Positions 16,777 through 51,888 of a stretch of DNA of 54,003 nucleotides are shown here, in pieces. The notes under the pieces were generated by a model. It made no database searches. It was not told the origin of the DNA and was given only the letters and a program-made list of their open reading frames with translations. This DNA comes from Candidatus Kapaibacterium sp. (GTDB taxonomy: Bacteria > Bacteroidota > Ignavibacteria > Kapaibacteriales > UBA4661): contig JANYIG010000189.1 of NCBI GenBank assembly GCA_025358765.1, positions 1-54,003 on the forward strand, in the 5' to 3' direction. The stretch's first letter is position 1, and each line of letters starts with the position of its first letter. The position numbers were made by a program, and so were the translations under genes.

Positions 16777-19700
16777 ATGTCCACAACACCATGTACCCAT
16801 ATTGAGTATAACGCAGGAAATATGCAAGCTTCGCTCCTTCTTTTGGGAAGCTCTTCACAACAATCCAACCAACTACCAATTACCTTACGTCAATTATTTT
16901 GTGCCATTGTTCAGCGATTCATTGGTGCGGTAGTATTGTTGCTAATAGTGAGTACAAGCTCGTTATTGGCAGTGCCAAAGACTTGGAATGCTGGTTCAGG
17001 GACATTTGCTTGGAATGTAGCCGGTAACTGGAGTCCCGCCGGCATACCAGCTGGAGCAGATGACATTATTTTTCCTACAGGAGTGAACGTCGTCATTAAC
17101 GCTGGTATGCCCGGAGGTATGAATACCCTAACGTTGCAAGGAAGCGCACAAGTAGAGTTTAACATTGTGGGAGGAATAACAAATATAACTACTACGATTA
17201 GTCCTGCCTTAGACCTACAAGGCACATCTGTCCTCAAACTGAGTGGTAGCCGGATATTGCAAATTAATTCTGGAACACCAACCAATTCTTTTATTGGCGT
17301 TGGTGCAACCTTAATCGCCAATGGTGGTGGAGTACAAATAAGTGGTTCTGCTCATACACTTACCGTCAACGGAGTCTTTCAAAGAAATAGCAGTGCCATT
17401 GCGCTAAATGTGGGTGCCGGCTCAATTATTTACATGAGTGGTGCTAAACTATTTTACACTGGCACTATATCTATTAACACAGGTCCGGAGTTTCCCAACC
17501 CACTTCCTGCAGGCGTTACGCTGGAAGTAAATATGGTCGGGGTAGGTGTTGTCATAACTTCTCCGCCTCCAGCAGGCAGAATGATAAATGGACCTGTCAT
17601 AATCACACAAGGTCTTTTGAGAACGAACAATCCCGGTACGCCATTCTCGCACACGTTTGGTAGTCTTACCGTTCAAGCCACAGGGATAATGCAAATTCAA
17701 GATAATGCCCCTCTTACTGTGCTTGGAGCTGTGACGTACGCTGTTGGCGCTCAACTGCAATATTTAGGAAATAATAATTTCACATCTGGCGGGGAGTTTC
17801 CCGCGACCATGAACGGCGATGTAGTAGTCAATAAAGCACCCGGTCAAGTTCTTACGCTGGCAAATAGTAAGACAATAACCGGAACACTGAGCTTGACCGG
17901 TGGTGGTGGTGGGCTTAACATCGGTATTGGAAATACGCTACAAGTTAATGGCAGTGTATCATCAGTTGTAGGTGGTAGTCCAAACGGTATTAATGTGCCG
18001 TCTGGCGCAACCCTCCGACTCAATGGGGGTTGCTCATTAGGTGCGGCAAATGCTATTCAAGTACAAAATAACGGTGTTTTAGAGCTAAGTGGCAGCGGGG
18101 CTTCTGGCATAACGGGTAATGTGGCGGGCGTACAGTATAACTTAACCAGTACGCTACAATACACAAATTCCAGCGCAATGACGACAGGCACAGAGTTTCT
18201 GGCTGTTATGAATAATACCAATATCATTGTGGCATGTTCTGGCACAGGCTCTGTGATTCTTGGTGGCGGTAAAACAGCTAACATGGGGTTCACTTTTCAA
18301 TCAGGCACGCTGAATCTGAGTAATTTTACGCTGGCTTTAAGTGGAATTGTCAATTGCAACGGCGGTACACTTTCGGGCAATGGATCAACGGTAAGTGGAC
18401 TCTCTTTCTCAGCAGGTGCTACTGCTATTGTGAACGCACCTGGTCTGCATATTGACGTTGTGAATAATCAAATCGGATTGTTGGCAATAAACCGCACCGG
18501 TGGCAGTAACGTACTCAAATTACTTGACCCGCTTGTCCTAACGAATAGTCCGGGAATTTCACTGGTACTCACAAACGGTTTTATTGACAATGGCTCGAAT
18601 CCCATCACTATCCTTAACACCGTCAGCACGACAATTTCCGGCGGCTCAGTTACCTCGTACGTTCTTGGTGCCTTGCGGTGGCGCGTGGCGAACTCAGCCA
18701 ACTATAAATTTCCGGTGGGCAAAGGTGCGGCATTTTTGCCTGTGACCATGAAAGCTGGTGCCGCAAGCATAAGCGGCACCACCGACTTGGAAGTACAAGC
18801 GTTTACGCCGGGTTCGGGCGGTTCGTTCGCGGCGGATATTGCGCGACTAAGTGGTACCGAACATTGGCGCGTACAGGTGATGCAGGGAATGGTCTCTAAT
18901 GTAAGTTTAACGTTTACCACTACCGCTAGCGCACAACTTATTTCCGGGCTTGCTACCGCACCCGCACCTTTAGGGACATACACGGGTTTTGGGCGGTCGT
19001 TTCCGGGAAATCCAACGATAAATGATATGACAACGGATAACCTGCCAACCCTGCCGGGTACGTATTTTTCTATTGCGCTTCCAGTTTCCCCTCTGAACCT
19101 ATTGGGTGCAAGCATCGCACCCGTGAACAACAAGCGAAACATCAGTGCAACAGGAACAATAACATTGGGCTATACTACGCTCGTCACCGCCGCAACCGTA
19201 GTGAATAGCAGCCTTACGCCACAAACGGGCATAAAACTTTTCGGCGGAATGTCGGGCAAACGCACCGTGACCGGTTCGGTGATGGGGACGGGGATTTCAT
19301 TCGCGCCCGTGAAGTCGTTTTTCCCGGGCGAACAGGTGACGTTGAGCGTGACAAGCGCTCAAACAGCGCTTGGTGTGGTACAACAAAAAAGCATTGTGCT
19401 TAATTATGTTGCTGCCGCAGGTGTGGGACCGGGAACGCTTTCCAAGATAGCAGATTACCCCACAGGTGGTGGCGGTGCAAGTTCTGTCCGCTCAATCACA
19501 GGTGATTTTAACGGGGATGGAAAACTTGATGTGGTACTCATCAATCAAAACACGAATACGCTCTACCCTTGGTTCAATAATGGTGTGGGTGGTTTTACCG
19601 CTGGACCCACAACCGGGCTTGGTGCAAGCGTAGGCAGCGCTATCGAAGGGGATTTCGATGGTGACGGCGACCTCGATATTGCCGTTGCGAACAACGTGGC

Positions 19701-22700: not shown

Positions 22701-25700
22701 GCCTGTAACAATCACGGGTACGAGCTTTCAGACGGTGACAAGCGTGACTGTTGGCGGGGTTCCAGTGGCGGGATTTACGATAGTTTCTCCCACACAAATC
22801 ACCGTCACTCCTGCTGCTTCTGAGCAAGGAGCCGTAAGTGGTTCCATACGAGTTCTGAACGCGGTTGGAAGTACAACAACGTCGCAACAATTTAGCTACA
22901 TCAAACAACCGTTGATTTTCAGCTACAGCCCAACGTTTGCAACCGCTGGAACGGTGCTGATTGTGACGGGCGCGAACTTCTCGGCGCTTACGGAAGTCTC
23001 GCTTGGTGGGGTTCGAGTGACGTTTGCCACTGTGTCAAATTCCCTTGTCACCGTACTTGTTTCAACCACCGCAAATTCCGGCTTTCTTCGCATTACCAAC
23101 CCCGCAGGCTCCGTCGTTGCGCTTCAACAGTTCAATTTTATAGCACCGGAGCCGGCATCACTCACGCCTATTCAACGGGATTCTAGCATTTTGGTGAAAT
23201 TTTATCTTGCTACAGGTGGCGCTACAACATGGCGCGACACCACCAACTGGCTCACTGCTACCCCTGTGAACACGTGGTTTGGCGTGGCGGCGGACACGGT
23301 GGGTGGCAGTACGAGTGGAAATCTGCGCGTGACGAGTGTTAGCCTTGCGTCTAACAATCTCACGGGGGTAATCCCTGCAATCTTGGGCGGATTAAAAGGG
23401 TTAAAAATACTCAATCTGGCGGGCAATAAATTTTCCGGTACGATTCCGTCCTCCATTGCAACACTCACGCGGCTTGAGGAATTGTATGTGAATAACAACA
23501 ACCTTACGGGCGATTTGAGCGGCTTATTTCCAGAAACGGGTACGAATTCGCTTGCAAACATCCGTGTGCTACGGCTTGACAGCAACAGCCTTTCCGGAGT
23601 ACTTCCGGCGGGCTTTTGCGGGCTTCCGAACATCCGCGAATTGCGCTTGAATGCAAACAAACTCACGGGAGAAATTCCGTCGTGCATAGGTACATTAAAA
23701 AACATTGTGGTGCTTGACCTGAGTAACAATCAATTCAGCGGGGCTATTCCGTCAACGATTGGCTCACTCGTGAATTTGCAAGAGCTGAACCTTGCGCGAA
23801 ATAATCTCACCGGAGTGCTGCCCGCCACAATTGGGAGTACGTTAGCAACACTTTCAACAACGGGTACGCCAACGTTTTTGGCGGCAAAACATCGTACAGA
23901 TGGCTCCATATCAACACTTGTGGCATTACTGAAGATAGATGTGAGCAACAATCAGCTTTCGGGAGCAATTCCGTCATCGCTTTGGAATCTCGCGGCGTTG
24001 CGCGAGGTGAATTTATCGTACAACACCTTTGACAGCACGCTTCCGTTGAATATTGGCTCCGCAAAAGCGCTCAGAACGCTCGCACTGAGGAACAATCGGC
24101 TTTCCGGTACGATTCCGGCATCGCTTGGGCAATTGGATAGTTTGCGGATTCTTACGTTGGACAGCAATCTTTTGGACGGAACCGTACCCGCCACACTCAA
24201 GAATCTAAGCGCCTTACAAGAGCTTGGGCTAAGCGGGAATCGCCTCGACACGTTGCCGGCACTTGCGCCGCTCAAACCCCAAATCCTCCGTTTGGACGGC
24301 AATCAATTTACCTTTGGAAGTATCCTTGCGAATGTTGGCATAGCATCGTCCTTCACGTACACTCGTCAGGACAGCATTGGTACGGCACGCGACACGATTG
24401 GTATCATTGGCAGGTCGTTCAAACTCACGGTGAACACTGACGGCACGGATAATCGGTATCAGTGGTACAGGCTACGGACGGCAGCGGATGGCAGCGTAAG
24501 CAAACAAACGGTTGGCTCGTTGAACCGCTCGGCGGATTTGGTGTTGCCACTGTTTGCGGCGATTGACACCGGCGCGTATCTTTGCCGTGTGACAAACAAT
24601 GCCGCGTCAAAACTTGAGCTGTGGACGCGCCCAATAACAGTCGGTGCGCGGCTGCCGGCAGCACCAACGGTACTGCCTTTGCTTATTAGCCCCGTAAGCA
24701 TTAGTACCGTTCGCACTCTTGCTACATTTAGCTGGCGCGGAGTCTCGACAGCAACGTTTTACGTGATGGAACTCGGAACAACCAGCACATTCAACACCAC
24801 TACATCGGTTGTTTCGTGGACGGTGCGCGGCACGGATACAACGGTGAACGGACTCACGCCGCTCACCACGTATTTTTGGCGGGTGCGGGCGGGCAACGAA
24901 GGTGGCTTTGGGAATTGGTCTTCCACCGCGACGTTTACCACGCTGCGCCAAGGTGTTATCTTGACGGCAAACACGGTTGATTTTGGGCGCGTTGTGTTGG
25001 GAACATCCACACGCAAATTGTTCTCGCTGACGAATTTGAGCGAAAAAGCCATTGTGCTGCAAAGCCTCACGCCAAAAGACCCCACGCCATTTACCGTGAT
25101 TGGTCAGATTGCGAACACGATCGTTGCGGCAGGGCAGACGGCGCAAGTGACCATCGAATTTGCCCCAAAAACAACAGGCAGCGTTCAGCAAGACATCACA
25201 TGCGCCTACACCACGAACGGTGTACCGTCGAGCGATACGTTTGCTGGCGTGTTGCTTGGTCGTGCGGGCTTGCTCACGGTTGGAAATACAACGTTTGACA
25301 CAACAAATGTTGGTCGCCCAATACCAACGCAAGTCGAAGTATTCAATAAAAGCGATGAAGACGTTCGTATCACTCCTTCGGTTCCGGCAGGTAGCGTGTT
25401 TAAAGTTAGCCCTCTTATGGGCGAGAATGCCCTTATCAAGGCGAACAGCTCGAAACGTTTAGATATAGCGTACACCCTTGAAGTTGCTGGCATTACAACC
25501 GACACGCTCAAAATTGCATCGGAGAAAGATACCGTTTTTGCGGTACTATCTGCCGTTGGTGTAAATCAAAAAATCGACACTTTGCAGATGACGCTTATGC
25601 TCCGCTCGGAGCGGAATAATGTTGCTCCCGGAGATACGACAACGCTTGTTCTGTCTATCACACAAGGTAATCTTGGCGATATTGTTCGCGCATTAACAAA

Positions 25701-26319
25701 TGCAACATTTTCCGCGAAACTGAGCTTTGATCACAATGTATTGGTGTTAGATGCTGGCGAGCAAAATCTCACTCTCGATCCATCTTCGACGAGTAGTGAT
25801 TACTGGCGATATACGATTAAGCCTACGCTTTGGGAAAAGGCTAAAACCAACGATATTCTGTTGCGATTTCGGTGTCTTTCGGTGGCTGGTGCAATTGACA
25901 CGACGAGACTTATCGTTGTTGATGGTAGCTTTACGTGGGCGCCGGGTGAACCACAGCCAAAAATTATCACAAATCAATTTATTATCAGCACAACAAGTGC
26001 CACCTTCACTTCCGGCGCATGTCAGGCGGGTGGTACTCGTTTGGTGCAATCAACCACAAAACTGAAACTCAGCCATTCAGCGCCAAATCCCGTGAATGAT
26101 GAAACGCTCATTAGCTATAGCATCCGCGAGCAAGGTGTGGTGGTGCTTGCACTCTATGATATGCAGGGAACGCTTGTACGCACCCTTACGAGCAGTGTTC
26201 ATGCGCCGGGCGAGTATCAAACGCTGTTGCAAACAAATAATTTGGCAAGTGGCGTGTATATGCTAACGCTGCAAACCCCATCGGCACTGCTTTCGGAGCG
26301 ATTGCACGTTGTGAAGTAG
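16777..26319 (+). CDS. Giant T9SS-secreted multidomain surface protein B (3180 aa)
   Basis: An ATG with SD gggagga opens an unusually long leader (about 48 polar residues) before the signal-peptide core AVVLLLIVSTSSLLA. Beta-helix-type repeats span about 68-610. SbsA-like Ig domains lie near 771-885 and 1241-1345. Each is followed by a block with exactly seven calcium-binding FG-GAP/VCBS motifs (DFNGDGKLD type) at 888-1238 and 1348-1705, so two seven-bladed propellers are predicted. Five IPT/TIG domains follow (1706-2125), then plant-type leucine-rich repeats (2128-2518), an Ig-like domain, FnIII (2627-2725), HYDIN/DUF1573-like domains (2726-2928) and a cohesin-like region. The T9SS sorting domain starts at PNPVNDETLISY. 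From IPT to the C-terminus the domain order copies protein A. Surface adhesion or matrix function is inferred. Confidence 0.9.
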   Translation: MSTTPCTHIEYNAGNMQASLLLLGSSSQQSNQLPITLRQLFCAIVQRFIGAVVLLLIVSTSSLLAVPKTWNAGSGTFAWNVAGNWSPAGIPAGADDIIFPTGVNVVINAGMPGGMNTLTLQGSAQVEFNIVGGITNITTTISPALDLQGTSVLKLSGSRILQINSGTPTNSFIGVGATLIANGGGVQISGSAHTLTVNGVFQRNSSAIALNVGAGSIIYMSGAKLFYTGTISINTGPEFPNPLPAGVTLEVNMVGVGVVITSPPPAGRMINGPVIITQGLLRTNNPGTPFSHTFGSLTVQATGIMQIQDNAPLTVLGAVTYAVGAQLQYLGNNNFTSGGEFPATMNGDVVVNKAPGQVLTLANSKTITGTLSLTGGGGGLNIGIGNTLQVNGSVSSVVGGSPNGINVPSGATLRLNGGCSLGAANAIQVQNNGVLELSGSGASGITGNVAGVQYNLTSTLQYTNSSAMTTGTEFLAVMNNTNIIVACSGTGSVILGGGKTANMGFTFQSGTLNLSNFTLALSGIVNCNGGTLSGNGSTVSGLSFSAGATAIVNAPGLHIDVVNNQIGLLAINRTGGSNVLKLLDPLVLTNSPGISLVLTNGFIDNGSNPITILNTVSTTISGGSVTSYVLGALRWRVANSANYKFPVGKGAAFLPVTMKAGAASISGTTDLEVQAFTPGSGGSFAADIARLSGTEHWRVQVMQGMVSNVSLTFTTTASAQLISGLATAPAPLGTYTGFGRSFPGNPTINDMTTDNLPTLPGTYFSIALPVSPLNLLGASIAPVNNKRNISATGTITLGYTTLVTAATVVNSSLTPQTGIKLFGGMSGKRTVTGSVMGTGISFAPVKSFFPGEQVTLSVTSAQTALGVVQQKSIVLNYVAAAGVGPGTLSKIADYPTGGGGASSVRSITGDFNGDGKLDVVLINQNTNTLYPWFNNGVGGFTAGPTTGLGASVGSAIEGDFDGDGDLDIAVANNVATSVTIYFNNGAGNFIAGGATTVMGGVGLGNLLSADFDSDGDLDMMAYITSIGQCSVLLNNGNGSNFSSQILSPNIGVNSILLGLKPGDYDSDGDPDVLVRNTMTGTLTVWVNDHSGGFTSGGIVAAPGSNLAAVGAADLNGDNDLDLVAVYDNTVQVFFGGGGTTFGGANTYAFPSVGDAAGGNSVTLADFDGDGSIDIAAGGKLKNFVTLLKNNGTGSFNRALTTSVASPSGPLAYGDFDGDGDIDLVMPSQGNTMFSLLLNVTPPVLTATTPINGTQNVAQNTSIQTTFNVAMTTATASGGVVKVFGSLSGLSAGAYSTTSTATGLFQPTEPFKPGEFVSVSVTNAQSSQFPFTTRATVFSFRALAGAAPATFAIDNTLDVGTQPQSVAAGDFNGDGAVDYAVVNNGSDNISIFYNLNDGTGGFDPAITLITPNKPEAIIAVDMNNDGKLDLVTTHRASALGLVVVFSNLGASFSQISSTLVNGQGAETLVAADFDGDGDMDIAVASSASSQISILYNNGAGGFPMGNIASFTTSEAIKDIDVADLDLDGDMDIVAAGVNNLLLFINSTPGTNSGSNSAAWLPIAPILTGLPTHNALVCADFNGDGKPDIAIAGTNSIAFFQNQGGTALPTLAGTANVPNNSNIRDMIVGDFNGDGNLDIATANKNSDAVSVLLNNGGVSFTNSFTSTLTTGAKTRALATADLDGDGDLDIIAVNESLNTSTILLNKSAAPIITALSPLQSLGSGGGFLTITGANLDLITTIVIAGVPVTTIANKTPTQLIVIIPPSGGESRSGLVTASGTQGSTSSTQTFLYVDAPKITNIAPLSGAPGTAVTITGKNFLFITSATFGGAFAAVSAASYTVLSTTQILAVVGNGNTGAITVANFAGADSSLSVFTIKIVASIDDFTPKIGTSGTVVTITGQNLGLASSVLFNGIAASGFTVLSTTQVQAVVPPKASTGNISIVLSALNYTAQSVQPFSILQPPTITTFTPTTGTFSVPVTITGTSFQTVTSVTVGGVPVAGFTIVSPTQITVTPAASEQGAVSGSIRVLNAVGSTTTSQQFSYIKQPLIFSYSPTFATAGTVLIVTGANFSALTEVSLGGVRVTFATVSNSLVTVLVSTTANSGFLRITNPAGSVVALQQFNFIAPEPASLTPIQRDSSILVKFYLATGGATTWRDTTNWLTATPVNTWFGVAADTVGGSTSGNLRVTSVSLASNNLTGVIPAILGGLKGLKILNLAGNKFSGTIPSSIATLTRLEELYVNNNNLTGDLSGLFPETGTNSLANIRVLRLDSNSLSGVLPAGFCGLPNIRELRLNANKLTGEIPSCIGTLKNIVVLDLSNNQFSGAIPSTIGSLVNLQELNLARNNLTGVLPATIGSTLATLSTTGTPTFLAAKHRTDGSISTLVALLKIDVSNNQLSGAIPSSLWNLAALREVNLSYNTFDSTLPLNIGSAKALRTLALRNNRLSGTIPASLGQLDSLRILTLDSNLLDGTVPATLKNLSALQELGLSGNRLDTLPALAPLKPQILRLDGNQFTFGSILANVGIASSFTYTRQDSIGTARDTIGIIGRSFKLTVNTDGTDNRYQWYRLRTAADGSVSKQTVGSLNRSADLVLPLFAAIDTGAYLCRVTNNAASKLELWTRPITVGARLPAAPTVLPLLISPVSISTVRTLATFSWRGVSTATFYVMELGTTSTFNTTTSVVSWTVRGTDTTVNGLTPLTTYFWRVRAGNEGGFGNWSSTATFTTLRQGVILTANTVDFGRVVLGTSTRKLFSLTNLSEKAIVLQSLTPKDPTPFTVIGQIANTIVAAGQTAQVTIEFAPKTTGSVQQDITCAYTTNGVPSSDTFAGVLLGRAGLLTVGNTTFDTTNVGRPIPTQVEVFNKSDEDVRITPSVPAGSVFKVSPLMGENALIKANSSKRLDIAYTLEVAGITTDTLKIASEKDTVFAVLSAVGVNQKIDTLQMTLMLRSERNNVAPGDTTTLVLSITQGNLGDIVRALTNATFSAKLSFDHNVLVLDAGEQNLTLDPSSTSSDYWRYTIKPTLWEKAKTNDILLRFRCLSVAGAIDTTRLIVVDGSFTWAPGEPQPKIITNQFIISTTSATFTSGACQAGGTRLVQSTTKLKLSHSAPNPVNDETLISYSIREQGVVVLALYDMQGTLVRTLTSSVHAPGEYQTLLQTNNLASGVYMLTLQTPSALLSERLHVVK

Positions 26320-36177: not shown

Positions 36178-38130
36178 TTAGAAGTGATACCGTACAAATG
36201 CCTCCATTGCTTCGTATTCTGCCAGCCCAAGTTTGTCGTACACTGCCGCCGTAGCGGTATTGCGGTCTTCGGCGCGTTCCCAAAATTCGCGCGGATCGCT
36301 GCCGGGGAAAAGTGCGCGGTCTTTTTGGGATTGATGTTTGAAGATGGCAGCTTTTTTGCGCTCCATCTCTTGCGGGCTGATGGGAACTGCCATTTCGATT
36401 TGCTCCACGCCCCATTCTTGCCAAGCGCCGCGATACAGCCACACATAACAGTCTTTAAGCCAGTCGCTCTTCGGGTTGGCTTTCAAACGTTTTAACGCCT
36501 CGAAGATTGCTGCCAAACATACGCGGTGCGTACCGTGCGGGTCGGAAAGATCGCCTGCCGCGTAAATTTGGTGTGGCTTGATGTTTTCTAATAAATCCAT
36601 GATTATCTGAATATCTTCGTCAGAAAGTGGTTTTTTCTTCACGCGCCCGGTCTCGTAAAACGGCATATCGAGGAAATGTGCCTGTTCGTCGGGAACGCCT
36701 ACATAGCGACATCCCGCCTTTGCCTCGCCGCGACGAATCAGACCTTTAATCATCTGTACGTCCGGTGTATCAATCTCCGCTGGCTTTTTATCGCGGATGT
36801 CGTTTTTCACTTTGTCGTAGATGTCTTCCGCTTGCTTGTTGCCGAGCTTAAAAAAGTCGTTAAAATCTGCCACAAAATCTGCAAACCGAATTGCATCTTC
36901 GTCGTGAACCGCGATATTACCGGACGTTTGGTATGCTACGTGTACCTCGTGACCTTGATCCACAAGACGGATGAACGTGCCGCCCATAGAAATCACATCG
37001 TCGTCGGGGTGCGGGCTGAACAGCACCACACGTTTGGGGAACGGCGTGGAACGTTCTGGACGACGCAGATCGTCGGCGTTTGGTTTGCCGCCGGGCCAGC
37101 CCGTAATCGTATTTTGCAGCTTGTTGAAGATGTCAATATTCAGGTTGTAGGCGCGACCGTATTCTACGACCAAATCCGCCATGCCGTGTTCGTTGTAATC
37201 CTCGTCAGTGAGTTTCAAAATTGGCTTGTTCACTTTTTGGCAAAGCCAAATAACGGCAGCGCGGATGCGCTCGGTCGTCCAATCGCACGGACCCATCAGC
37301 CACGGCGTTTTTACGCGACTGAGTTCCGCCGATGCTGCTTCGTCCAGCACAATCGCGGCGTTCGGGTGTTCTTGCAGGAACGTTGCAGGCACAAGGTCGG
37401 TGATACCGTCCTCGACGGTGCGACGAATGACTTTCGATTTACCTTCGCCCCACGCCATCATAATAATCCGTCGTGCGCCCAAAATCGTCCCAACACCCAT
37501 CGTTACAGCATTGCGCGGAACATAATGCTCGCTGTAAAAATCGCTTGCCGCGTCAATCCGCGTCATGCGGTCGAGCGTAATCAAGCGCGTAACGGAATCT
37601 TTGCGTGAACCCGGCTCGTTGAAGCCAATATGCCCCGTGCGACCAATGCCCAATACCTGAATGTCAATGCCGCCCGCAGCTTTAATACGCTGCTCGTACT
37701 CGCGGCAGTATGCGGCAACACCTTCTTTTAAAATAGTTCCGTCGGGAATATTGATGTTTTGTGGTTTGATGTCAATGTAGTCAAACAAATGCTCCCGCAT
37801 AAAGCGCACGTAGCTTTGTTGGCTGTCGGGCTCCATTGGATAATATTCATCAAGGTTGAAGGTTATGACATTGGCAAAACTCAAACCGTCCTCTTTGTGC
37901 ATTCGCACGAGTTCGTCGTACATGCGGGTGGGGCTGGAACCAGTTGCCAAGCCGAGAACAATCATTTTGTCCTGTCGCGCACGGTCACGAATGGCATCCG
38001 CAATTTCTTGCGCCACAGCCTTTGATGCCGATACGGAATCGGGGAAGATATGTGTCGGGATGCGCTCAGGATAGAGTTTTTCAATGCTTGCAATAGATTG
38101 TGGATGTATGTCTGTCGTTGTTGTGTTCAT
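36178..38130 (-). CDS. nagB: Glucosamine-6-phosphate deaminase fused to LmbE/PIG-L deacetylase domain
   Basis: This 650-aa two-domain protein starts at an ATG with SD ggaggg. Residues about 25-290 are NagB, which converts glucosamine 6-phosphate to fructose 6-phosphate and ammonia. Visible motifs are LATGSSPTRMY (phosphate binding), FNLDEYYPM (Asp94) and GHIGFNEPGS (His167, Glu172). From about 365 a LmbE/PIG-L domain follows, with FSPHPDDDVISMGG as the metal-binding motif and DPHGTHR later. That family deacetylates N-acetylglucosamine-type substrates. The fusion would couple deacetylation and deamination in amino-sugar catabolism; whether the second domain is active is not known. The gene stands alone with its own terminator. 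Confidence 0.93.
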   Translation of the reverse strand: MNTTTTDIHPQSIASIEKLYPERIPTHIFPDSVSASKAVAQEIADAIRDRARQDKMIVLGLATGSSPTRMYDELVRMHKEDGLSFANVITFNLDEYYPMEPDSQQSYVRFMREHLFDYIDIKPQNINIPDGTILKEGVAAYCREYEQRIKAAGGIDIQVLGIGRTGHIGFNEPGSRKDSVTRLITLDRMTRIDAASDFYSEHYVPRNAVTMGVGTILGARRIIMMAWGEGKSKVIRRTVEDGITDLVPATFLQEHPNAAIVLDEAASAELSRVKTPWLMGPCDWTTERIRAAVIWLCQKVNKPILKLTDEDYNEHGMADLVVEYGRAYNLNIDIFNKLQNTITGWPGGKPNADDLRRPERSTPFPKRVVLFSPHPDDDVISMGGTFIRLVDQGHEVHVAYQTSGNIAVHDEDAIRFADFVADFNDFFKLGNKQAEDIYDKVKNDIRDKKPAEIDTPDVQMIKGLIRRGEAKAGCRYVGVPDEQAHFLDMPFYETGRVKKKPLSDEDIQIIMDLLENIKPHQIYAAGDLSDPHGTHRVCLAAIFEALKRLKANPKSDWLKDCYVWLYRGAWQEWGVEQIEMAVPISPQEMERKKAAIFKHQSQKDRALFPGSDPREFWERAEDRNTATAAVYDKLGLAEYEAMEAFVRYHF

Positions 38131-41027: not shown

Positions 41028-41053
41028 AGATTGTATTATACCTTCCCGCTACG

Positions 41054-41866
41054 TTATTTTTTGCGAAAGCAAATAAGATAATGATCTGCCCACGACCGAA
41101 AAGGCGGCAGATGCGAAAGTTGTTCATCAAGGCGAGCCGCAGCAGCGTACAGCCTTGGGTAACGTTTGGCAAGATGTTCCCCATGAGGCGGCGGACTGAA
41201 CGACGCTAACCCCATATGCGTAACGCGCTCAAAATTATTTCCAAATGCCTGTTCAACATACCGCGGCGAATAATAAAATGTTTTAAAATATACACCCTCA
41301 ATATGTGCTATTGCGCCGTGCTTTTGTAGTCGCCGGAAAGCGGTTGACGTATTTCCCTTTAGGACAGAAAAAATCTCATATGGGCAAATGGGTGGCATCA
41401 ACACGAGTGTTGCATAGCCAGAAGGCTTCATCAGTGCTTTTATTGAGTGAATGACCGATGCGAGGTTTTCCGCGCAGTTTAAGCCTCCAAAGTTTGAAAA
41501 AATGTGGTCATATTGATTGCCGTTGAGTGTTTGAAGCTGATTAAATGAACAACACTGCACCCGAACTTGTTTTTGAAGACCATACCGTTCCACCTTTTGC
41601 TCTATTTGTGCAAGCATTCCCTCCGCACTGTCCGTTGCGTGAACCTCAACGCCATGCTGTGCGAAAAAGACAGCATCTATACCCGTACCTGCGTTGAGTT
41701 CAAGTAACGTATTGTTGGGCTTCAAATGCGACAATACTTGTTGCTGAATGCGGTGGCGCATCCATTGTATGATTGGGTTTTCGCGCTCATTTTCGTCAAA
41801 TCCAGATGACTGTTTAGAAAATGCAGCATTGGTGCGTTGTTCCTGAATAGTCACTGCATAACTCAT
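41054..41866 (-). CDS. Class I SAM-dependent methyltransferase
   Basis: This 270-aa methyltransferase has motif I as LLELNAGTGIDAVFFAQHG near residues 54-72. The acidic residue binding the SAM ribose is in EVHATDSAEGM. A GGLNCAEN segment occupies the motif IV/post-I region, and the C-terminal half has an aromatic-rich lid (GVYFKTFYYSPRYVEQAFG). The substrate is not recognisable; the lid suggests a bulky or lipid-like acceptor. The start overlaps the stop of the radical SAM gene in ATGA, so both are made together. It belongs to the GT4/nucleotidyltransferase/radical SAM operon. Confidence 0.88.
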   Translation of the reverse strand: MSYAVTIQEQRTNAAFSKQSSGFDENERENPIIQWMRHRIQQQVLSHLKPNNTLLELNAGTGIDAVFFAQHGVEVHATDSAEGMLAQIEQKVERYGLQKQVRVQCCSFNQLQTLNGNQYDHIFSNFGGLNCAENLASVIHSIKALMKPSGYATLVLMPPICPYEIFSVLKGNTSTAFRRLQKHGAIAHIEGVYFKTFYYSPRYVEQAFGNNFERVTHMGLASFSPPPHGEHLAKRYPRLYAAAARLDEQLSHLPPFRSWADHYLICFRKK

Positions 41867-43323
41867 GGATGTTGAAGTAAAAAATGTAAACGTAGTTTGT
41901 CAATCGCGGCGGCGGGGAGGAAATATACAATTGACAGTGCCGATCGAAGCTGTGTGCTATTGAGCATGGAAGGGTGTTTAAGAACGTTTTGGAGCGATTG
42001 TATTGCCTGCCGACCCCGAAAAAGTTTGTGGACAAAACGATGCAAGCGTTTGTAGAATGCTGGTGGGTATGTGCTACGAAACATCAGAGAAAGGTCGTCT
42101 GAATCCGTCCAATTTGCTTTTGTGCGGAGGTCTTGTTTGACCGTTTCATAAAAAACCGTACCCGGCAAAGGGTACGAAACTGAAACACCAATATCTGTGG
42201 GCATAAGGTCGAGTACCATTTGAACCGTTGCATCAATATCCTCTTTCGTTTCTCCCACGTAGCCAAATTGAAGAAACAGAGCAGGTTTCATCAAATAACG
42301 TTTGATGGTTTTGGTCGCCTCATAAATTTGCTCGACAGTGATACCTTTGTCCATCGCATCCAAAATCTTCTGCGAACCAGATTCTGCTCCCATCCAAATC
42401 GTCTCACAGCCTGCTTTGGCAAGCGCTTCCACCGTGCCGCTTTTGAGCAATAAATCCGCACGGGATTGAATTTTGAAGCGAAATTTTAGCCCTGTTCGTG
42501 TCACTTCTTCTGCAAATTCTTGCACCCACGAGGGTTTTAAGCCAAATATATCATCGCAAAACCAAATATGCTCAATGCCGAATCTCCGTTGAAGCTCCAG
42601 CAATTCTTGCACAACATTTTGTGGTGAGCGCGAGTTATAGCGGTTGCCATAAATCGGTTTTGCACACCAATTGCATTTGAATGGGCATCCGCGAGTCGTG
42701 GCGACATTAAGCGAAAAATAGCCATAACGCTTGTTCCAGGTGTTTTTGTACTGTTCGACATCAATCAAATCCCAAGCAGGAAATGGCAAAGTGTCTAAAT
42801 CGTCCATCACGGCGCGTTTTGCTGTCCGTAGCGTTGTCGTTCCTCGTCGGAAGGCAATGCCGGGAATTTCCTCTAATGAGGTAGATGCTTCAAAGTGTTG
42901 AATGGTCTCTCGCAACGTTCGTTCTGCTTCGCCAAATATCACGATGTCTGCACCGTTATCCAGATACTGTTCATAGTGGTCGGTGGCATCGGAGCTTGAG
43001 ACAATCACGTTGCAACCATATTCTTTGGCAAGGCGAATCATGCGAAACGCTGCTTCGCGCATATTGGTCAGACACATTTTTGTGAGATAGTTGAAGCCAT
43101 CATCATACAAAACAACGTAGTTAGGCGTTTTGCTGTTTAGCGTTGCGACAATATCGTCAGGGGAGCGAGCAAACATTGTGTCGTGCAAGGCAATGGAAAA
43201 TCCAGCGTCACGGAGAACGGAGGCGGCATAAAGTGTACCGAGCGGCGGATATGGCTGCTGTTGTTTTAATTGCTTCGGGTCGAAGCGCAAAAAATAGGAG
43301 TGCGTAAGCAGGATTGAAGCCAT
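41863..43323 (-). CDS. Radical SAM protein with N-terminal B12-binding-like domain
   Basis: This 486-aa protein begins with a Rossmann-like domain of the cobalamin-binding type (YPPLGTLYAASVLRDAG, residues 25-41). The usual DxHxxG cobalamin ligand is missing: the site reads LHDTMF. The radical SAM barrel carries GCPFKCNWC, so Cys213, Cys217 and Cys220 bind the 4Fe-4S cluster. IWMGAESGSQKILD is the later SAM-binding signature. Relatives perform methylations, ring formations or lipid-tail modifications. It is coupled to a methyltransferase (ATGA overlap) and follows a nucleotidyltransferase-fold gene by 15 bp. The exact reaction is unknown. Confidence 0.88.
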   Translation of the reverse strand: MASILLTHSYFLRFDPKQLKQQQPYPPLGTLYAASVLRDAGFSIALHDTMFARSPDDIVATLNSKTPNYVVLYDDGFNYLTKMCLTNMREAAFRMIRLAKEYGCNVIVSSSDATDHYEQYLDNGADIVIFGEAERTLRETIQHFEASTSLEEIPGIAFRRGTTTLRTAKRAVMDDLDTLPFPAWDLIDVEQYKNTWNKRYGYFSLNVATTRGCPFKCNWCAKPIYGNRYNSRSPQNVVQELLELQRRFGIEHIWFCDDIFGLKPSWVQEFAEEVTRTGLKFRFKIQSRADLLLKSGTVEALAKAGCETIWMGAESGSQKILDAMDKGITVEQIYEATKTIKRYLMKPALFLQFGYVGETKEDIDATVQMVLDLMPTDIGVSVSYPLPGTVFYETVKQDLRTKANWTDSDDLSLMFRSTYPPAFYKRLHRFVHKLFRGRQAIQSLQNVLKHPSMLNSTQLRSALSIVYFLPAAAIDKLRLHFLLQHP

Positions 43324-43338
43324 GTTGGAGAAGCCATA

Positions 43339-44307
43339 TTAGTGAAGACGCACGTTGTGTTTGACTTCAAATGCAGCTCGTTGTTGCGTTATGGCTTGCA
43401 ACACACGGTGCTGAAAATTATTCGGGTGATGTTTGGAAACGTCTTTTTTTGAGCGTAGGGCGAGTTCAAATTCATCATCACTGAGATGAGGAAACTTTTT
43501 TTTCCATCTGTTTACCGTTACCCTAAAACAATAATCGTCCAGCCAATCGCCTACGGAGCCTTCAAGAAAATGCTCAACTGATGTTTTAAGAAGCCCTGAC
43601 CGTGCGGGGAGCGTGTCGGTGGTCGGACGCAATGGAAAATGTGGGAGGTATTCCGTAACCCAGTAGTTCTTCGCCATGAATGCGTGATAGAGCGCGTCAT
43701 TGTAGGTCGGAACAAGAAAAGCAATTTCGATTGCTGTATAAATATTTTTATCAGGAATTTCGAGGTTGTCGTTGTCAATAAAATAATTGACACAGAAAAA
43801 TTTGTGTGAATTTAAAAGGGCGATTTTTTTGAACAGAATAAGAAGCATCCGATTGAGCCATAAGCGTCCGGGCTTGGTGATAATAAAATAATCAATGTCC
43901 GACGCAGCATCCATACAGTTTTTCGATAACGACCCGGATAAAAAAACGGCTTTTGTGAAGGGAAATGCTCCAATCAACCGAGAAAAAAATCCTGCCGCTC
44001 CATGATATTTTTGTGCCAGTGCATTTTTATTCCGACGTTCTTGGACGATTAAATCATCGGCATTGACAAAATAAAAGCCTTCGCGCTCGTAAATATATCC
44101 ATTCCGCACCAGCAGTATGGCTTGTTCGTGGACATCTTCGGGTGTTGCCTGAGAACAATCATTCAACAGCCAGAGTTCATGCCCCGTCAAAGGATAACGA
44201 AAAATGTCGAAGTAGAGCAGTGTGTTCACAATGGAAGAACCCACCGCAGTTAATTCTGTTTCGGTAACGCGATATGGTGAAGTCGCAAGCATTTGAATTG
44301 CAATCAC
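43339..44307 (-). CDS. Nucleotidyltransferase-fold protein
   Basis: This 322-aa protein starts at a GTG that overlaps the previous stop (GTGA at 44304-44307); an ATG five codons later is an alternative. A winged-helix-like N-terminal part (LLYFDIFRYPLTGHELWLL) precedes a minimal nucleotidyltransferase motif. That motif is SGSLSKNCMDAASDIDYFII, with Gly125-Ser126 and catalytic-type Asp137/Asp139. A long, mainly helical C-terminal region follows. The GS...DxD pattern is that of Pol-beta-like nucleotidyltransferases, which transfer NMP groups to small molecules, RNA or proteins. No substrate can be named. Its place between a glycosyltransferase and a radical SAM enzyme suggests a biosynthetic step. 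Confidence 0.75.
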   Translation of the reverse strand: MIAIQMLATSPYRVTETELTAVGSSIVNTLLYFDIFRYPLTGHELWLLNDCSQATPEDVHEQAILLVRNGYIYEREGFYFVNADDLIVQERRNKNALAQKYHGAAGFFSRLIGAFPFTKAVFLSGSLSKNCMDAASDIDYFIITKPGRLWLNRMLLILFKKIALLNSHKFFCVNYFIDNDNLEIPDKNIYTAIEIAFLVPTYNDALYHAFMAKNYWVTEYLPHFPLRPTTDTLPARSGLLKTSVEHFLEGSVGDWLDDYCFRVTVNRWKKKFPHLSDDEFELALRSKKDVSKHHPNNFQHRVLQAITQQRAAFEVKHNVRLH

Positions 44308-45356
44308 GAACGGTGATAGAGGTGAAAATATGTCTGTGCTGTATTATCAATAGTTGGAACGGTGACAGGTGTTGCGTCAAGATTGGTTCGTTCCATATGA
44401 GCGAGAACTGCATCACTCAAACACTTGTCGTTATCACAAACGAGCATTTTCGGATGATGTAAGGTATAGCCAACGTTAAAACTTACGGTGTATGCACCAC
44501 AGTGAAGCGCCTCTGTCAGCACAAGACCCTGCCCTTCATATATTGAAGTGTGGAGCAAAAGTTTGCTGCGCGTCATGTATTCATAGACCACCGTTCGTGG
44601 AACTTCTCCAATAAGTTCGACTGTATTTTCAAGGTGAAGATTGGCAATAAGTTCTCGCAAATGCTTCAATTCCTTGCTATCCACGTGTGCGCCGACTATC
44701 AATGCTCGAACGTTCGGAAACTGGAGACGAATGCGGGCAACAATATGGACAAACAGGGAAAAATTCTTGAGTGGTATAACCGAACCAACACCTAATATAT
44801 CAATATCCCGTGTTTTATTCAAGGACACACTTGCAGTGGTATCAACGCCAAACGGGATAATATTTTGCACCGTTTTTCCTGTCCACTTGGCGAAAACTTG
44901 TGCTGCAAACTTGGAAAGCGCTACGATATGTAAAGAACGTGTGTTGATAAAGCGAAGATATTGATTGCCGCTTTTTGCGTCTTGTCCCATGATGGTTGCA
45001 ATGTGGGGTACGTTGTATTGCCGCGCCGCATATTGACCAAGCATTGTACTTTCGGAAAGCCAGAAGGAATGGATGGTTGTGATAGGCTCCTGTTTGTGAA
45101 GCCTGTGGATATGGTGTAAGGCGCGGAACCATGTTCGAGGTTTTACTATTTTACTGTTCCGCCCGCCAGCGCTATACACAGCCACGCCATGCCACGTGTA
45201 GGAACCTCCGCGAAACGGGTAATGTAACGCAATGATACTGAGCCGCAATTCAGGGTATAAGCGTAGATAGGCGTGTACAAGGTCTTGCAGTGATGGGATA
45301 CACGTTGTATCGTGTTCGTCTGCTGCAAAGCCAGGAGTGACGAAAAGAATATGCAC
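44304..45356 (-). CDS. GT4-family glycosyltransferase
   Basis: This 350-aa GT-B glycosyltransferase starts MHILFVTPGFAADEHD, a typical N-terminal Rossmann strand. The donor-binding half contains the retaining GT4 signature STSIYEGQGLVLTEALHCG region (about 275-293), with the E-x7-E-type spacing. IIPFGVDT near 164-171 and GSVIPLKNF near 192-200 are further family hallmarks. It lacks membrane segments and probably works at the inner face of the membrane. It is coupled to the downstream nucleotidyltransferase-fold gene by a GTGA overlap and follows the nucleoside transporter by 33 bp. Confidence 0.88.
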   Translation of the reverse strand: MHILFVTPGFAADEHDTTCIPSLQDLVHAYLRLYPELRLSIIALHYPFRGGSYTWHGVAVYSAGGRNSKIVKPRTWFRALHHIHRLHKQEPITTIHSFWLSESTMLGQYAARQYNVPHIATIMGQDAKSGNQYLRFINTRSLHIVALSKFAAQVFAKWTGKTVQNIIPFGVDTTASVSLNKTRDIDILGVGSVIPLKNFSLFVHIVARIRLQFPNVRALIVGAHVDSKELKHLRELIANLHLENTVELIGEVPRTVVYEYMTRSKLLLHTSIYEGQGLVLTEALHCGAYTVSFNVGYTLHHPKMLVCDNDKCLSDAVLAHMERTNLDATPVTVPTIDNTAQTYFHLYHRS

Positions 45357-45389
45357 GGATTTCAGAATATCGTTATCAAGCGTAACTAT

Positions 45390-46673
45390 TTACATCAACA
45401 TCCCTGCAATGGTCGCGGACAGATACGATGCCAAAGTGCCGCAAATTAGGGCTCGTACGCCAAGTTTTGCCAAGTCGGAACGGCGCGAAGGCGCAAGTTC
45501 GCCGATGCCGCCGATTTGGATAGCTATCGAACTCAAATTTGCAAAACCACAGAGCGCAAAACTTGCTATCACCACTGCTTTTGGTGTGAGGACACTTTTG
45601 GCGAGCATTGCCGACATGTCGGAGTATGCCACAAACTCGTTAATGACGAATTTTGTTCCGAGCAGCGAGCCAACGCGCTGTACATCAGGCATGGGAACAC
45701 CCATCACCAATGCAAAACCCGCAAACAGCGCACCCAAAATTTGCTTCAAACTGAGCGTAGCGAGATCAATGCCAATACCAGCAAACGACCAGCCCCACTG
45801 CGTTGCAGCAAAATAACCCGCGCCGCCTAATATTGCGTCCACCATCGCAATCAGGGCAATAAAACCAATCAACATTGCTATAACATTTATTGCCACTTTC
45901 ATGCCGTCGGAAGCGCCATGCGCGATAGCATCCACAAGGTTTGCGTCTTGTTTTTCGATTTGCAGTTTAACAATTCCTTTTGTCTCAGACTCTTCGGTTT
46001 CGGGATAGACAATTTTTGCAATTACGAGTGCCGCTGGAGCCGCCATGAGGCTTGCCGCAATCAGATACGGTGCGGGAACACCCATAGAGATATACACCGC
46101 CATCACGCCGCCCGCAATACAAGCCATAGAACCAGCCATGGAAGCAAGCAATTCGCTCATCGTCATGCCCGGAACATATGGGCGAATCATAATCTGCGCT
46201 TCGACCTGCCCCACAAAAGCACTTGCGACGTTCGAGAGCGCTTCCGAACCACTCACGCCCATCAACAAATACACACCTTTGGCAATTACCGCTACCACGC
46301 GCTGCATCAATCCAATGTGGTACGCAACGCTTACTAACACCGAAACGAAGATAATTGTGGGCATTACTTTGAGCGCAAAAATGAAACTGCTACCAGCGCC
46401 AAAGACTTTTTCGAGCGTTTCTTTGTGAACGAGAATACCGAACACGAACTCCGCACCTTTGTTTGAGTAATCCAACAACTGCGACACAGCCGCGCCTAAG
46501 GCTGCAAATAGCTGTTGACCAAGCGGGACTTTGAGGATAAACACCGCCAATACGAGCTGTAAACCAAGTCCCGTCAACACCAGACGGTAATTGATACGTT
46601 TGCGATTGTTGGAAAGGGCGTAGGCGAGAGCGAGGATACAAGCGATGCCAAGAAGTCCGGTAAATCGTTCCAT
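45390..46673 (-). CDS. Concentrative nucleoside transporter (CNT/NupC family)
   Basis: This 427-aa polytopic protein with about ten membrane segments is a cation-coupled nucleoside importer of the CNT family. The family signature GTKFVINEFVAYSDM (pattern GxKxxxNEFVAY) is intact near residues 333-347. EAQIMIRPYVPGMT and GVSGSEALSNVASAFVGQ are the conserved substrate-site hairpin regions. It heads the minus-strand run 46673-40431. It may simply share transcription with the glycosyltransferase operon, or supply nucleosides to it. Confidence 0.92.
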   Translation of the reverse strand: MERFTGLLGIACILALAYALSNNRKRINYRLVLTGLGLQLVLAVFILKVPLGQQLFAALGAAVSQLLDYSNKGAEFVFGILVHKETLEKVFGAGSSFIFALKVMPTIIFVSVLVSVAYHIGLMQRVVAVIAKGVYLLMGVSGSEALSNVASAFVGQVEAQIMIRPYVPGMTMSELLASMAGSMACIAGGVMAVYISMGVPAPYLIAASLMAAPAALVIAKIVYPETEESETKGIVKLQIEKQDANLVDAIAHGASDGMKVAINVIAMLIGFIALIAMVDAILGGAGYFAATQWGWSFAGIGIDLATLSLKQILGALFAGFALVMGVPMPDVQRVGSLLGTKFVINEFVAYSDMSAMLAKSVLTPKAVVIASFALCGFANLSSIAIQIGGIGELAPSRRSDLAKLGVRALICGTLASYLSATIAGMLM

Positions 46674-46730
46674 GCGGTAATTAGTTTTGAGGTTTGAGTT
46701 TTGAGGTTTAAATTAGATGCTTGTTTTGTT

Positions 46731-46829
46731 GTTCGTCATTGGTCATTAGTCATTTGTGCTTGGTCATTTGTCAGTCGTGACGTAGTGATAATCCGCACAA
46801 ATGCTCGTAAATCGCGCCCAATGACGAAC
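46731..46829. repeat. Nested inverted-repeat element before GT2 gene
   Basis: Two pairs of exact inverted arms are nested. The outer pair is gttcgtcattgg (46731-46742) with ccaatgacgaac (46818-46829). The inner pair is catttgtgc (46751-46759) with gcacaaatg (46795-46803). Degenerate ggtcatt units repeat between them and continue as ccactgacc after them. Upstream at 46685-46709 is a tandem of ttttgaggtttgag. It fills the divergent spacer between the transporter and the GT2 gene. Confidence 0.7.
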
Positions 46830-46853
46830 GACCACTGACCACTGACTTTCATA

Positions 46854-47624
46854 ATGCTACACGAAAAAAAAATTGTTGTTGTACTGCCTGCATACAACGC
46901 TCAAGCAACACTTGAACAAACCTACCGTGAAATACCGATTGGCGGCACAAATGCTATTGTGGATGAGGTAATCCTTGTGGATGATGCCAGCCGTGATAAC
47001 ACTGTCGAGGAAGCACATCGGTTGGGGATTCATCACGTTATTCGCCATGAACAGAACAAAGGTTATGGCGGCAACCAAAAAACGTGCTACTCAAAAGCCC
47101 TCGAAATCGGCGCTGATATTGTGATAATGCTGCATCCAGACTATCAATATACGCCGAAACTTATTCCTTCGATGGCATATTTGATTGCGAATGATGTGTA
47201 TCCCGTCGTGCTTGGCTCACGGATTTTGGGCAAGGGAGCGTTGCGAGGCGGAATGCCTATGTACAAATATATTGCGAACCGCCTTCTTACGCTAACGCAA
47301 AATCTTCTGATTGGGCAAAAACTCTCGGAATATCATACGGGCTACCGCGCATTTTCCCGCGAAGCGCTCGAAGCAATAGATTTTATGCGAAATTCGGACG
47401 ATTTTGTGTTCGATAATCAAATGCTCTCGCAGCTTGTGTATGCGGGGTTTGACATTGCAGAAGTGACCTGTCCGACCAAATATTTCGAGGAAGCATCGTC
47501 CATCAACTTCCGGCGCAGCGTTACCTACGGCTTTGGTGTACTTGGTGTGTCCGTTCGGCATTGGTTGCAACGCACGGGATTGGCAAAATTTGCACTGTAC
47601 GAGCCGCCAGTGAATCACATCTAA
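46854..47624 (+). CDS. GT2 glycosyltransferase, dolichyl/polyprenyl-phosphate mannosyltransferase-like
   Basis: This 256-aa GT-A enzyme has the N-terminal IVVVLPAYNAQATLEQT and the nucleotide-binding VDDASRDNT, followed by GYGGNQKTCYSKALEIGADI. HPDYQYTP stands at the DxD metal-binding position, and GSRILGKGALRGGMP is the acceptor loop. It resembles DPM1-like transferases that load a sugar onto a polyprenyl phosphate, but it lacks C-terminal membrane helices. It is followed by argS 49 bp downstream, and two further glycosyltransferases lie after argS. A surface-polysaccharide or protein-glycosylation role is likely. Confidence 0.88.
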   Translation: MLHEKKIVVVLPAYNAQATLEQTYREIPIGGTNAIVDEVILVDDASRDNTVEEAHRLGIHHVIRHEQNKGYGGNQKTCYSKALEIGADIVIMLHPDYQYTPKLIPSMAYLIANDVYPVVLGSRILGKGALRGGMPMYKYIANRLLTLTQNLLIGQKLSEYHTGYRAFSREALEAIDFMRNSDDFVFDNQMLSQLVYAGFDIAEVTCPTKYFEEASSINFRRSVTYGFGVLGVSVRHWLQRTGLAKFALYEPPVNHI

Positions 47625-49408: not shown

Positions 49409-50617
49409 TTGCGAATCCTCGTCCATGACTATTGCGGGCATCCGTTTCAAATACAGCTTAGCCGCACACTTGCTGCTCGAAAGCATGAGGTGTTACATCT
49501 TTATTCGGGGTCACTTCAATCACCGCATGGAAATGTTTCCAATGACGGTGATAGTGAAAATCCGTATTTCCAGATTCGCGCTATTCATCTTCCCCACGAT
49601 GTTGCCAAATATTCTCCGGTGAAGCGATATTGGCAGGAACTGCGCTATGCGCGGTTGCTGCGAGCAGAAATTCATGCTTTTTCGCCGGACATCGTTCTTT
49701 CGGCAAATACCCCGCTCGCTGTTCAACGTCAGGCGTTGAAGGCAAGCAAAGCAGCTTGTGCTCAATTCGTGTTTTGGCTCCAAGATATGCTTGGCGTTGG
49801 CATCAAAAACGTAGTGGCGAGTAGCATACCGCTTATCGGAGGTGCTATCGGGAATTATTTTGTCGCGTTGGAAGAGCAGCTTTTGCACGAAAGTGATGCG
49901 GTTATTACCATTACGCATGATTTTGAGAAACAGTTGCTTCGTGCTGGTGTGCGCTCGTCGGGCATCGTGACCATTCCCAACTGGGCTCCGCTTGAGGAAA
50001 TGCCGCTTATGCCAAAAGTGAACGCGTGGTCGCAGCAGTATAGCTTTGAATCTGGATTTAATTTTATCTATTCCGGCACGTTGGGGCTGAAACACAATAC
50101 GGATATCCTTATTGACCTTGCTCGTAGGCTTGAATCCAAGCCAGATTGCCGTCTTATTGTTTGTTCGGAAGGTTTAGGCGCAGAGTGGTTGCGTGAGCAA
50201 CAACGCTTGTTGGGGTTGTCGAATCTACACGTTATGGATTATGTGGCGTACCACGAGTTGCCGCGTGTGCTGGCGGCGGCGGATGTGTTGCTGGGAATTC
50301 TTGACGTTAAAGCGGGTGTGTTTTCTGTGCCGTCCAAAGTAATGACGTATCATTGTGCGGGAAAAGCAATTCTGTTGGCGGTTCCACCAGAAAACCTTGT
50401 AAGCCGCATCGTCACTGAACACCAGACGGGTATAGCGGTTCCGCCCAACGATCATGCTGCTTTTTGCGCCGCCGCGATGAATTTGTATAACGATGAACAA
50501 CTCCGCGCAAGGTTGGGAGCCAATGCGCGACGGTATGCCGAACAGACGTTTGATATTGAAGCTATCGCCGATAGGTTTGAGGCGCTGTTTACGACACTTT
50601 CGTCACCACAAATCTAA
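49409..50617 (+). CDS. GT4-family glycosyltransferase (WcaI/WbuB-like)
   Basis: The start is a TTG with a strong SD (caggagg at 49395-49401), better placed than any ATG. The 402-aa GT-B protein opens RILVHDYCGHPFQIQLSRTL. It includes FVFWLQDMLGVGIKNV, a region typical of WcaI/WbuB-type colanic-acid or O-antigen transferases. IPNWAPLEEMPL and FIYSGTLGLKHNTDI lie at the domain interface, and the donor site is near VPSKVMTYHCAGKAILLAVP. It probably transfers a sugar (fucose- or FucNAc-like in relatives) to a lipid-linked glycan. It is followed after 26 bp by another GT4 gene. Confidence 0.9.
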   Translation: MRILVHDYCGHPFQIQLSRTLAARKHEVLHLYSGSLQSPHGNVSNDGDSENPYFQIRAIHLPHDVAKYSPVKRYWQELRYARLLRAEIHAFSPDIVLSANTPLAVQRQALKASKAACAQFVFWLQDMLGVGIKNVVASSIPLIGGAIGNYFVALEEQLLHESDAVITITHDFEKQLLRAGVRSSGIVTIPNWAPLEEMPLMPKVNAWSQQYSFESGFNFIYSGTLGLKHNTDILIDLARRLESKPDCRLIVCSEGLGAEWLREQQRLLGLSNLHVMDYVAYHELPRVLAAADVLLGILDVKAGVFSVPSKVMTYHCAGKAILLAVPPENLVSRIVTEHQTGIAVPPNDHAAFCAAAMNLYNDEQLRARLGANARRYAEQTFDIEAIADRFEALFTTLSSPQI

Positions 50618-50643
50618 CAAAAAGTCTAACGAAGCGGTGGTGT

Positions 50644-51888
50644 ATGCATATTCTCCAAATTGCGCCTCGAATCCCGTTCCCGCTTGACGACGGCGGTGCT
50701 ATTGCTGTTTACAACGTCACGAAAGCTCTTCATACTGCGGGTCACCGGATTACCTTTCTTGCGCTCAATACAAACAAGCACCATCAACCGTCAGAGGTGA
50801 TGCAAGGCGTGTGTGAGCGTATCAAAACGGTGGACATCAACACCGATATTCGACCTTACAAAGCGTTTGTGAATCTCTTCTCCACGATGCCGTATAACGC
50901 GGAGCGATATGTGTCGCAAGAATTTATTAATCTTGTTCGGAGCGAGATTTTGAGCGCTGCAGAGCTTGATGACCCGTTCGATATCATTCACATTGAGTTT
51001 GTGTATGCCGCGTATGTGATTGATGCCATTCGTGCATTGCAAACAAACACGGATATTCCGTTTGTGATTCCTCCCGTCGTCTTGCGAACACATAATGTGG
51101 AATACAAAATTCGAGAGCGGCTGGCTGCAAACGAACCGAATTTGCTCAAGCGTTGGTACATGCGGCTTTTGGCGCGACGATTAAAAGCCCTCGAACAACG
51201 CTATTTTCAGCAGATGGACGGTATTCTTGCCATCACGCCGGAGGACGCACAAACCATTCGTGCTATGGGCTACACGGGTGTAATGGCGGTGATGCCGGCG
51301 GGTGTAGATGTTGAGTTTTTTACGCCGCGAGAGCATCTGACAACACAGGAGAATACCCTTTTCTTTTTTGGCAGTTTGGATTGGATTGCGAACCAAGAAG
51401 GTGTTCATTGGTTTATGAGAGCGGTGTTTCCGCTCGTGCGGCAGAAATTTCCTACCCTTGAATTCCACATTGGCGGGAAAAATCCATTGGATGATATTCT
51501 GCGATATGCCTCTGAGCAAGGCGTGACGGTGCATCCAAACGTTCCGTCCGCACCGGAATTTATGCAACAGTTCGACATCATGCTTGTGCCGTTGCTCAGT
51601 GGCGGGGGAATGCGGGTGAAAATCGTCGAGGCAATGAGTATGGGAAAACCTATCATTTCCACGCGTATTGGCGCTGAGGGCATAGCCGCAGAGCATGGTG
51701 TAAATATCCTGCTTGCCGATACACCGGAAGAAATCCTTCATGCTATAGATACCTTGCTGAATAATCCTATCCTAAAACAGCAAATAGGAAACAATGCCCG
51801 CATAACTGCCACAGAACGCTATTCGTGGGAATCCGTTACACAAGAGGGCATCAGGTTGTATAAGCACTTGCGCCGTTCTCGAGCCTGA
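50644..51888 (+). CDS. GT4-family glycosyltransferase
   Basis: This 414-aa GT-B enzyme has N-terminal MHILQIAPRIPFPLDDGGAI, with the GG-x-x-x nucleotide-sugar loop common to GT4. VMPAGVDVEFFTPRE is the linker motif, and FFFGSLDWIANQEGVHWF opens the second Rossmann domain. LVPLLSGGGMRVKIVEAMSM has the conserved GGGxRxKxxEA donor-site motif. GTs with this signature often build surface polysaccharides. It is likely co-transcribed with the preceding GT4. No terminator was seen after it. Confidence 0.9.
   Translation: MHILQIAPRIPFPLDDGGAIAVYNVTKALHTAGHRITFLALNTNKHHQPSEVMQGVCERIKTVDINTDIRPYKAFVNLFSTMPYNAERYVSQEFINLVRSEILSAAELDDPFDIIHIEFVYAAYVIDAIRALQTNTDIPFVIPPVVLRTHNVEYKIRERLAANEPNLLKRWYMRLLARRLKALEQRYFQQMDGILAITPEDAQTIRAMGYTGVMAVMPAGVDVEFFTPREHLTTQENTLFFFGSLDWIANQEGVHWFMRAVFPLVRQKFPTLEFHIGGKNPLDDILRYASEQGVTVHPNVPSAPEFMQQFDIMLVPLLSGGGMRVKIVEAMSMGKPIISTRIGAEGIAAEHGVNILLADTPEEILHAIDTLLNNPILKQQIGNNARITATERYSWESVTQEGIRLYKHLRRSRA

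Follow-up and report, generated by a model that had tools for sequence, protein, structure and literature searches.

Four genes on the minus strand of the window, i.e. the whole 54,003-nucleotide stretch of Candidatus Kapaibacterium sp. DNA analysed here, form with high probability a dedicated module. They encode a glycosyltransferase (GT4), a nucleotidyltransferase-like protein (NT), a B12-binding radical SAM enzyme (rSAM1) and a methyltransferase (MT1). A dedicated pathway is well supported because the linkage of these genes is conserved across many genomes. The combination could not be matched to a known pathway in the preliminary description, and a literature search, mostly without subscription journals, retrieved no description of it.

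Gene layout and insertion site

The features of the locus are the following:

44304-45356, minus strand: GT4, retaining GT-B glycosyltransferase of a distinct subfamily (PF00534, alignment)
43339-44307, minus strand: NT, winged helix, Pol-beta-type nucleotidyltransferase-like domain and helical C-terminus (37 relatives, AlphaFold model)
41863-43323, minus strand: rSAM1, B12-binding and radical SAM enzyme (Pfam, 34-member alignment, model)
41054-41866, minus strand: MT1, class I SAM-dependent methyltransferase (Pfam, profile search)
41028-41053, no strand: downstream junction of the block with rsmD (rsmD lies directly 3' of the CNT gene in four relatives)
45357-45389, no strand: upstream junction of the block with the CNT gene (CNT-rsmD adjacency in relatives)

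All four open reading frames were recovered on the minus strand between 41054 and 45356, where the preliminary description had placed them. The nucleoside transporter (CNT) gene lies 33 bp upstream of them, as described, and rsmD, which scores above the cut-off of TIGR00095, lies 26 bp downstream. The tight spacing claimed for the genes stands for rSAM1 and MT1, which overlap by 4 bp (ATGA), and for NT and rSAM1, which are 15 bp apart; an overlap between GT4 and NT (GTGA), which requires a GTG start for NT, is uncertain. The closest NT homologue, in the related genome G005, begins at Met6 of the window's protein, corresponding to an ATG at 44292, 15 bases downstream of the GTG. This ATG is probably the true start of NT, so that GT4 and NT would be separated by a gap of about 11 bp instead of overlapping.

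The CNT gene and rsmD are present in most genomes of the window's own family. Because they adjoin directly in four of these relatives (G003, G008, G004 and G009; same strand, 23-45 bp apart), the block is an insertion of exactly these four genes, 4.36 kb in length. The transporter gene is the ancestral neighbour of rsmD and gives no clue to the product; its membership in the pathway is ruled out by the same four junctions, which lack the block. GC3 of all four genes is 0.41-0.46, against 0.52 for the CNT gene and 0.50 for rsmD, and the GC content of the block is 45%, against 49% in the rest of the window. The module is best read as horizontally moving or transferable.

At the block ends, only one repeat pair reaches a junction: two inverted, imperfectly matching 18-nt arms (41864-41881 and 45389-45406). 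Its inner arm lies inside the block, and the pair is not counted as evidence. Promoter and terminator scans remained at chance level, and no cobalamin riboswitch or other Rfam RNA was detected in the window. A search of plasmid records retrieved no NT relative and no close relative of rSAM1, the matches to the latter being below 30% identity among those listed.

Elsewhere the window contains a GT2 gene (46854-47624), a plus-strand tandem of two further GT4-type genes (49409-50617 and 50644-51888) and a gene for a 650-aa protein (36178-38130) whose sequence suggests a glucosamine-6-phosphate deaminase fused to a PIG-L-type deacetylase domain. Two giant open reading frames of 3694 and 3180 aa (5280-16364 and 16777-26319) are encoded on opposite strands, nearly back to back. 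On its upstream side the CNT gene is closely preceded by a short AT-rich, repeat-like stretch with variants of 'aatgaccaatgac' (46720-46840).

The encoded proteins

The four protein families originally proposed were borne out, by Pfam for the most part and by an AlphaFold model in the case of NT. GT4 matches PF00534 (Glycos_transf_1, GT-B) with 78.6 bits (cut-off 26.4, 5e-22) and possesses the EX7E pair E274/E282, invariant in the alignment of 14 relatives; domain and motif together place it among the retaining GT4 enzymes. Its subfamily carries the N-terminal motif PGFxxDExDxxCxP.

rSAM1 combines a B12-binding domain (PF02310, 39.0 bits, cut-off 32.1) and a radical SAM domain (PF04055, 77 bits, cut-off 29.5) in one chain, with three cysteines (C213xxxC217xxC220) invariant in 34 sequences. 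Both domains and the CxxxCxxC motif assign it to the cobalamin-dependent radical SAM superfamily. Its structural model (pLDDT 80) is nearest to AprD4 (Z 24.4, rmsd 3.2, 395 residues), followed over the full length by OxsB (Z 23.3), MgmA (22.8) and TsrM (21.8). AprD4 is a dehydratase and, to our knowledge, does not use cobalamin. The protein shares with enzymes of the BchE, HpnJ, MgmA and OxsB type the B12-binding Rossmann and radical SAM domains, the CxxxCxxC motif and a full-length structural match, yet scores below the curated cut-offs of BchE (TIGR02026, 152.5 bits, cut-off 481; another member, from locus L045, reaches 160.5), HpnJ (TIGR03471, 130.9 bits, cut-off 577.6) and MgmA (TIGR04014, methyl-coenzyme M reductase glutamine methylase, 110.6 bits, cut-off 360). 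We know of no pathway of these types with NT and MT1 partners. The B12_rSAM_oligo (TIGR04295) and ladderane-type (TIGR04072) B12 radical SAM proteins belong to the same superfamily (E 1e-27 or better), but rSAM1 is a member of neither (97 bits against a cut-off of 400, and 105 against 360). It stays under every NCBIfam equivalog cut-off and, on these sequence scores, falls outside all curated radical SAM families.

NT reaches only 16.3 bits against NTP_transf_2 (PF01909), under the gathering cut-off of 21, and a PDB sequence search returned no credible relative. Its AlphaFold model (pLDDT 87.8) predicts a winged helix at residues ~17-85 (Z ~8) and a nucleotidyltransferase domain at residues 97-217. 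The latter appears nearest to the kanamycin nucleotidyltransferase ANT(4') (Z 8.6 over ~111 residues, 15% identity, with low confidence as to substrate). The motif GS..D137xD139, of which G125, D137 and D139 are invariant in 37 sequences, places NT in the Pol-beta superfamily as a GS motif and DxD on neighbouring strands within a nucleotidyltransferase fold. Motif and core are common to NT and ANT(4'); in contrast to the latter, NT has an extra winged helix, another C-terminal part and an invariant Cys-x-Asn on the third strand (C172 and N174, in all 37 relatives). Pol-beta-type nucleotidyltransferases usually hold their third metal-binding catalytic carboxylate on this strand. Either N174 or the nearby E194, conserved in 35 of the 37, may occupy the third metal position. 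The earlier suggestion of a nucleotide-linked sugar as the product is unlikely for NT, given its Pol-beta-type fold and the invariant N174 on the strand of the usual third carboxylate. NDP-sugar pyrophosphorylases have a different, PF00483-type fold, and Pol-beta-type enzymes transfer NMP to a hydroxyl.

Linkage across genomes

With NT as query, a collection of 84,980 species yielded 11 loci, all in Bacteroidota-type records. rSAM1 is present at E <= 1e-90 in 27 of the 395 genomes sampled from the phylum. The set of NT, rSAM1 and MT1, often accompanied by GT4, a further radical SAM enzyme (rSAM2), a further methyltransferase (MT2) and a GT-C enzyme, occurs in about 7% of them. NT and rSAM1 occur together in 37 of 40 loci (window included), NT lying directly upstream of rSAM1 in 31 of the 37 and overlapping it in 22. 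This linkage is far above chance, ~0.5% being expected per genome even for a distance within 11 kb.

MT1 directly follows rSAM1 in 24 of 32 cases, and by profile search the two are linked in 10 of 11 genomes tested. The exception is G009, where rSAM1 was not found in the assembly and the 3.5-kb contig with NT and GT4 breaks off within the cluster. In some loci the profile search located MT1 as an uncalled or fused open reading frame, or ~11 kb away. One genome (G033, L062:9241-11424) possesses a natural fusion of rSAM1 and MT1, 727 aa long, with radical SAM and methyltransferase domains. The GT4 subfamily occurs in 12 of 29 carriers, in all 12 as a single copy at most ~11 kb from rSAM1 or NT; GT4 is not core, because it is absent from the other 17. 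Conserved linkage in many genomes, named in the preliminary description as support for a dedicated pathway, thus holds for NT, rSAM1 and MT1, and for GT4 in those 12 carriers; the converse case, adjacency confined to this genome, was checked and does not apply.

Pairwise divergence is correlated between NT and rSAM1, rSAM1 and MT1, rSAM1 and GT4, and MT1 and GT4, shared species ancestry still being included in these values; there is no correlation for NT-MT1 and NT-GT4. Among the other nine genomes of the window's family, NT is found only in G005 and G009, at other positions. The gene order in G005 is GT4, NT, a thioredoxin/DUF3738 gene, rSAM1 and MT1, the inserted gene being of the AhpC-TSA/DUF3738 type (L071:4827-6059).

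Many loci add rSAM2 (a B12-type enzyme, ~33% identical to rSAM1), MT2 and a PMT_2-type GT-C enzyme. A second radical SAM protein of the rSAM2 kind was sought elsewhere in the window's genome, where only rSAM1 itself matches the rSAM2 query; this genome therefore holds a minimal version of the module. Nine loci (L045, L046, L047, L051, L052, L054, L055, L066 and L069) contain a ~387-aa amidohydrolase a few kb from the cluster, weakly matching the aminofutalosine deaminase family and often located next to a B12 radical SAM protein of ~500 aa, a variant of rSAM2.

Possible products of the module

We tentatively suggest, at somewhat short of an even balance, that what the module assembles or tailors is a surface glycan or glycolipid with methyl groups and a radical-based modification. 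Families GT1, GT9, GT87 and Wzy_C account for 24 of 120 proteins flanking the other copies, compared with 5-9 among 120 proteins from control regions in the carriers (Fisher test, p between 0.0001 and 0.004, a range because control families with one or two members are not all listed; related loci are not independent). This enrichment in glycosyltransferase and O-antigen-ligase genes supports a surface-glycan or glycolipid role. O-antigen and other surface glycan loci with mobile modification operons resemble the copies in other genomes in these nearby glycosyltransferases, GT-C enzymes and O-antigen ligases, and the module likewise moves as a block. It differs from them in its core of B12 radical SAM enzyme, nucleotidyltransferase and methyltransferase, and in the position of the window's block outside any glycan locus. 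That position, between a transporter gene and rsmD (though with the two further GT4 genes at 49409-51888 in the same window), speaks against this reading, as do the absence of GT4 from 17 of the 29 carriers, the uncorrelated divergence of NT with MT1 and GT4, and folds that would fit small-molecule chemistry equally well. The modified glycolipid of the preliminary description agrees with the glycan-rich neighbourhoods of other copies, the product itself being what we infer.

A soluble or secreted natural product of aminocyclitol, nucleoside or lipid type, which GT4 and MT1 would tailor and against which NT would protect the producer as a nucleotidyltransferase, is a less likely alternative. 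In the models NT appears to resemble kanamycin nucleotidyltransferase and rSAM1 the paromamine diol-dehydratase AprD4, both from aminoglycoside chemistry, and the patchy distribution and block insertion would suit a specialised metabolite. However, fold likeness at 15-20% identity says nothing of substrate, no scaffold-forming synthase, cyclitol synthase, dedicated exporter or regulator accompanies the four genes, and the flanks elsewhere are enriched in surface-glycan genes. There is a small chance that the target of the module is the glycan or lipid anchor that holds type IX secretion cargo: the translocon protein SprA is encoded by all 29 carriers, against 228 of 296 genomes (77%) of the phylum sample (p 0.0008). 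This difference is confounded by ancestry, most of the SprA-free genomes listed belonging to one family (f29), and the module is missing from most SprA-positive genomes (27 carriers among 395) and is thus not a general anchor pathway.

Modification of RNA or protein in the manner of MiaB or MgmA, NT then acting as an AMPylator comparable to MNT or DrrA, is similarly improbable. MgmA and MiaB are structural neighbours of the rSAM1 model, and DrrA and MNT antitoxins weak ones of NT, but rSAM1 scores far under the MgmA cut-off, no peptide or RNA gene recurs in the loci and the recurrent fourth partner is a glycosyltransferase. The defence library contains no match to NT or GT4 and just domain-level matches to MT1 and rSAM1, which tells against this reading as well and rules out a known anti-phage defence system. 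Chance proximity of genes from unrelated pathways is hardly credible: GT4 and MT1 do come from very large superfamilies, but conserved adjacency, overlaps, the fusion and joint insertion contradict it.

For a surface glycan or glycolipid, the following route may be proposed. rSAM1, with a 4Fe-4S cluster and presumably cobalamin, would carry out a radical change on a sugar or lipid-linked sugar. C-methylation is the likeliest but not the sole chemistry, because the cobalamin-dependent radical SAM enzymes characterised so far are mostly methylases; rearrangement or deoxygenation would be alternatives. MT1 would add an ordinary SAM-derived methyl group in a consecutive step, and GT4 would move a sugar onto or off the modified compound. 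NT might bind or nucleotidylate an intermediate or partner by means of its Pol-beta-type domain, joined to the winged helix. The end product would most likely be a methylated glycan or glycolipid, putatively located at the surface.

It is possible, if rather doubtful, that the module as a whole constitutes an undescribed, mobile B12 radical SAM pathway of Bacteroidota, in which a new subfamily of radical SAM enzymes depends on a Pol-beta-type nucleotidyltransferase with altered active site as its obligate partner, and whose product, a surface glycan or lipid with C-methylation or a rearrangement, would be new. The empty CNT-rsmD junctions of the relatives mark the exact ends of the module in its minimal form of four genes, so that this form can readily be cloned or deleted. 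NT is the constant partner of rSAM1, nucleotidyltransferase-like and with an unusual putative active site, and pairs of the NT-rSAM1 type are good entry points to new sugar or lipid chemistry.
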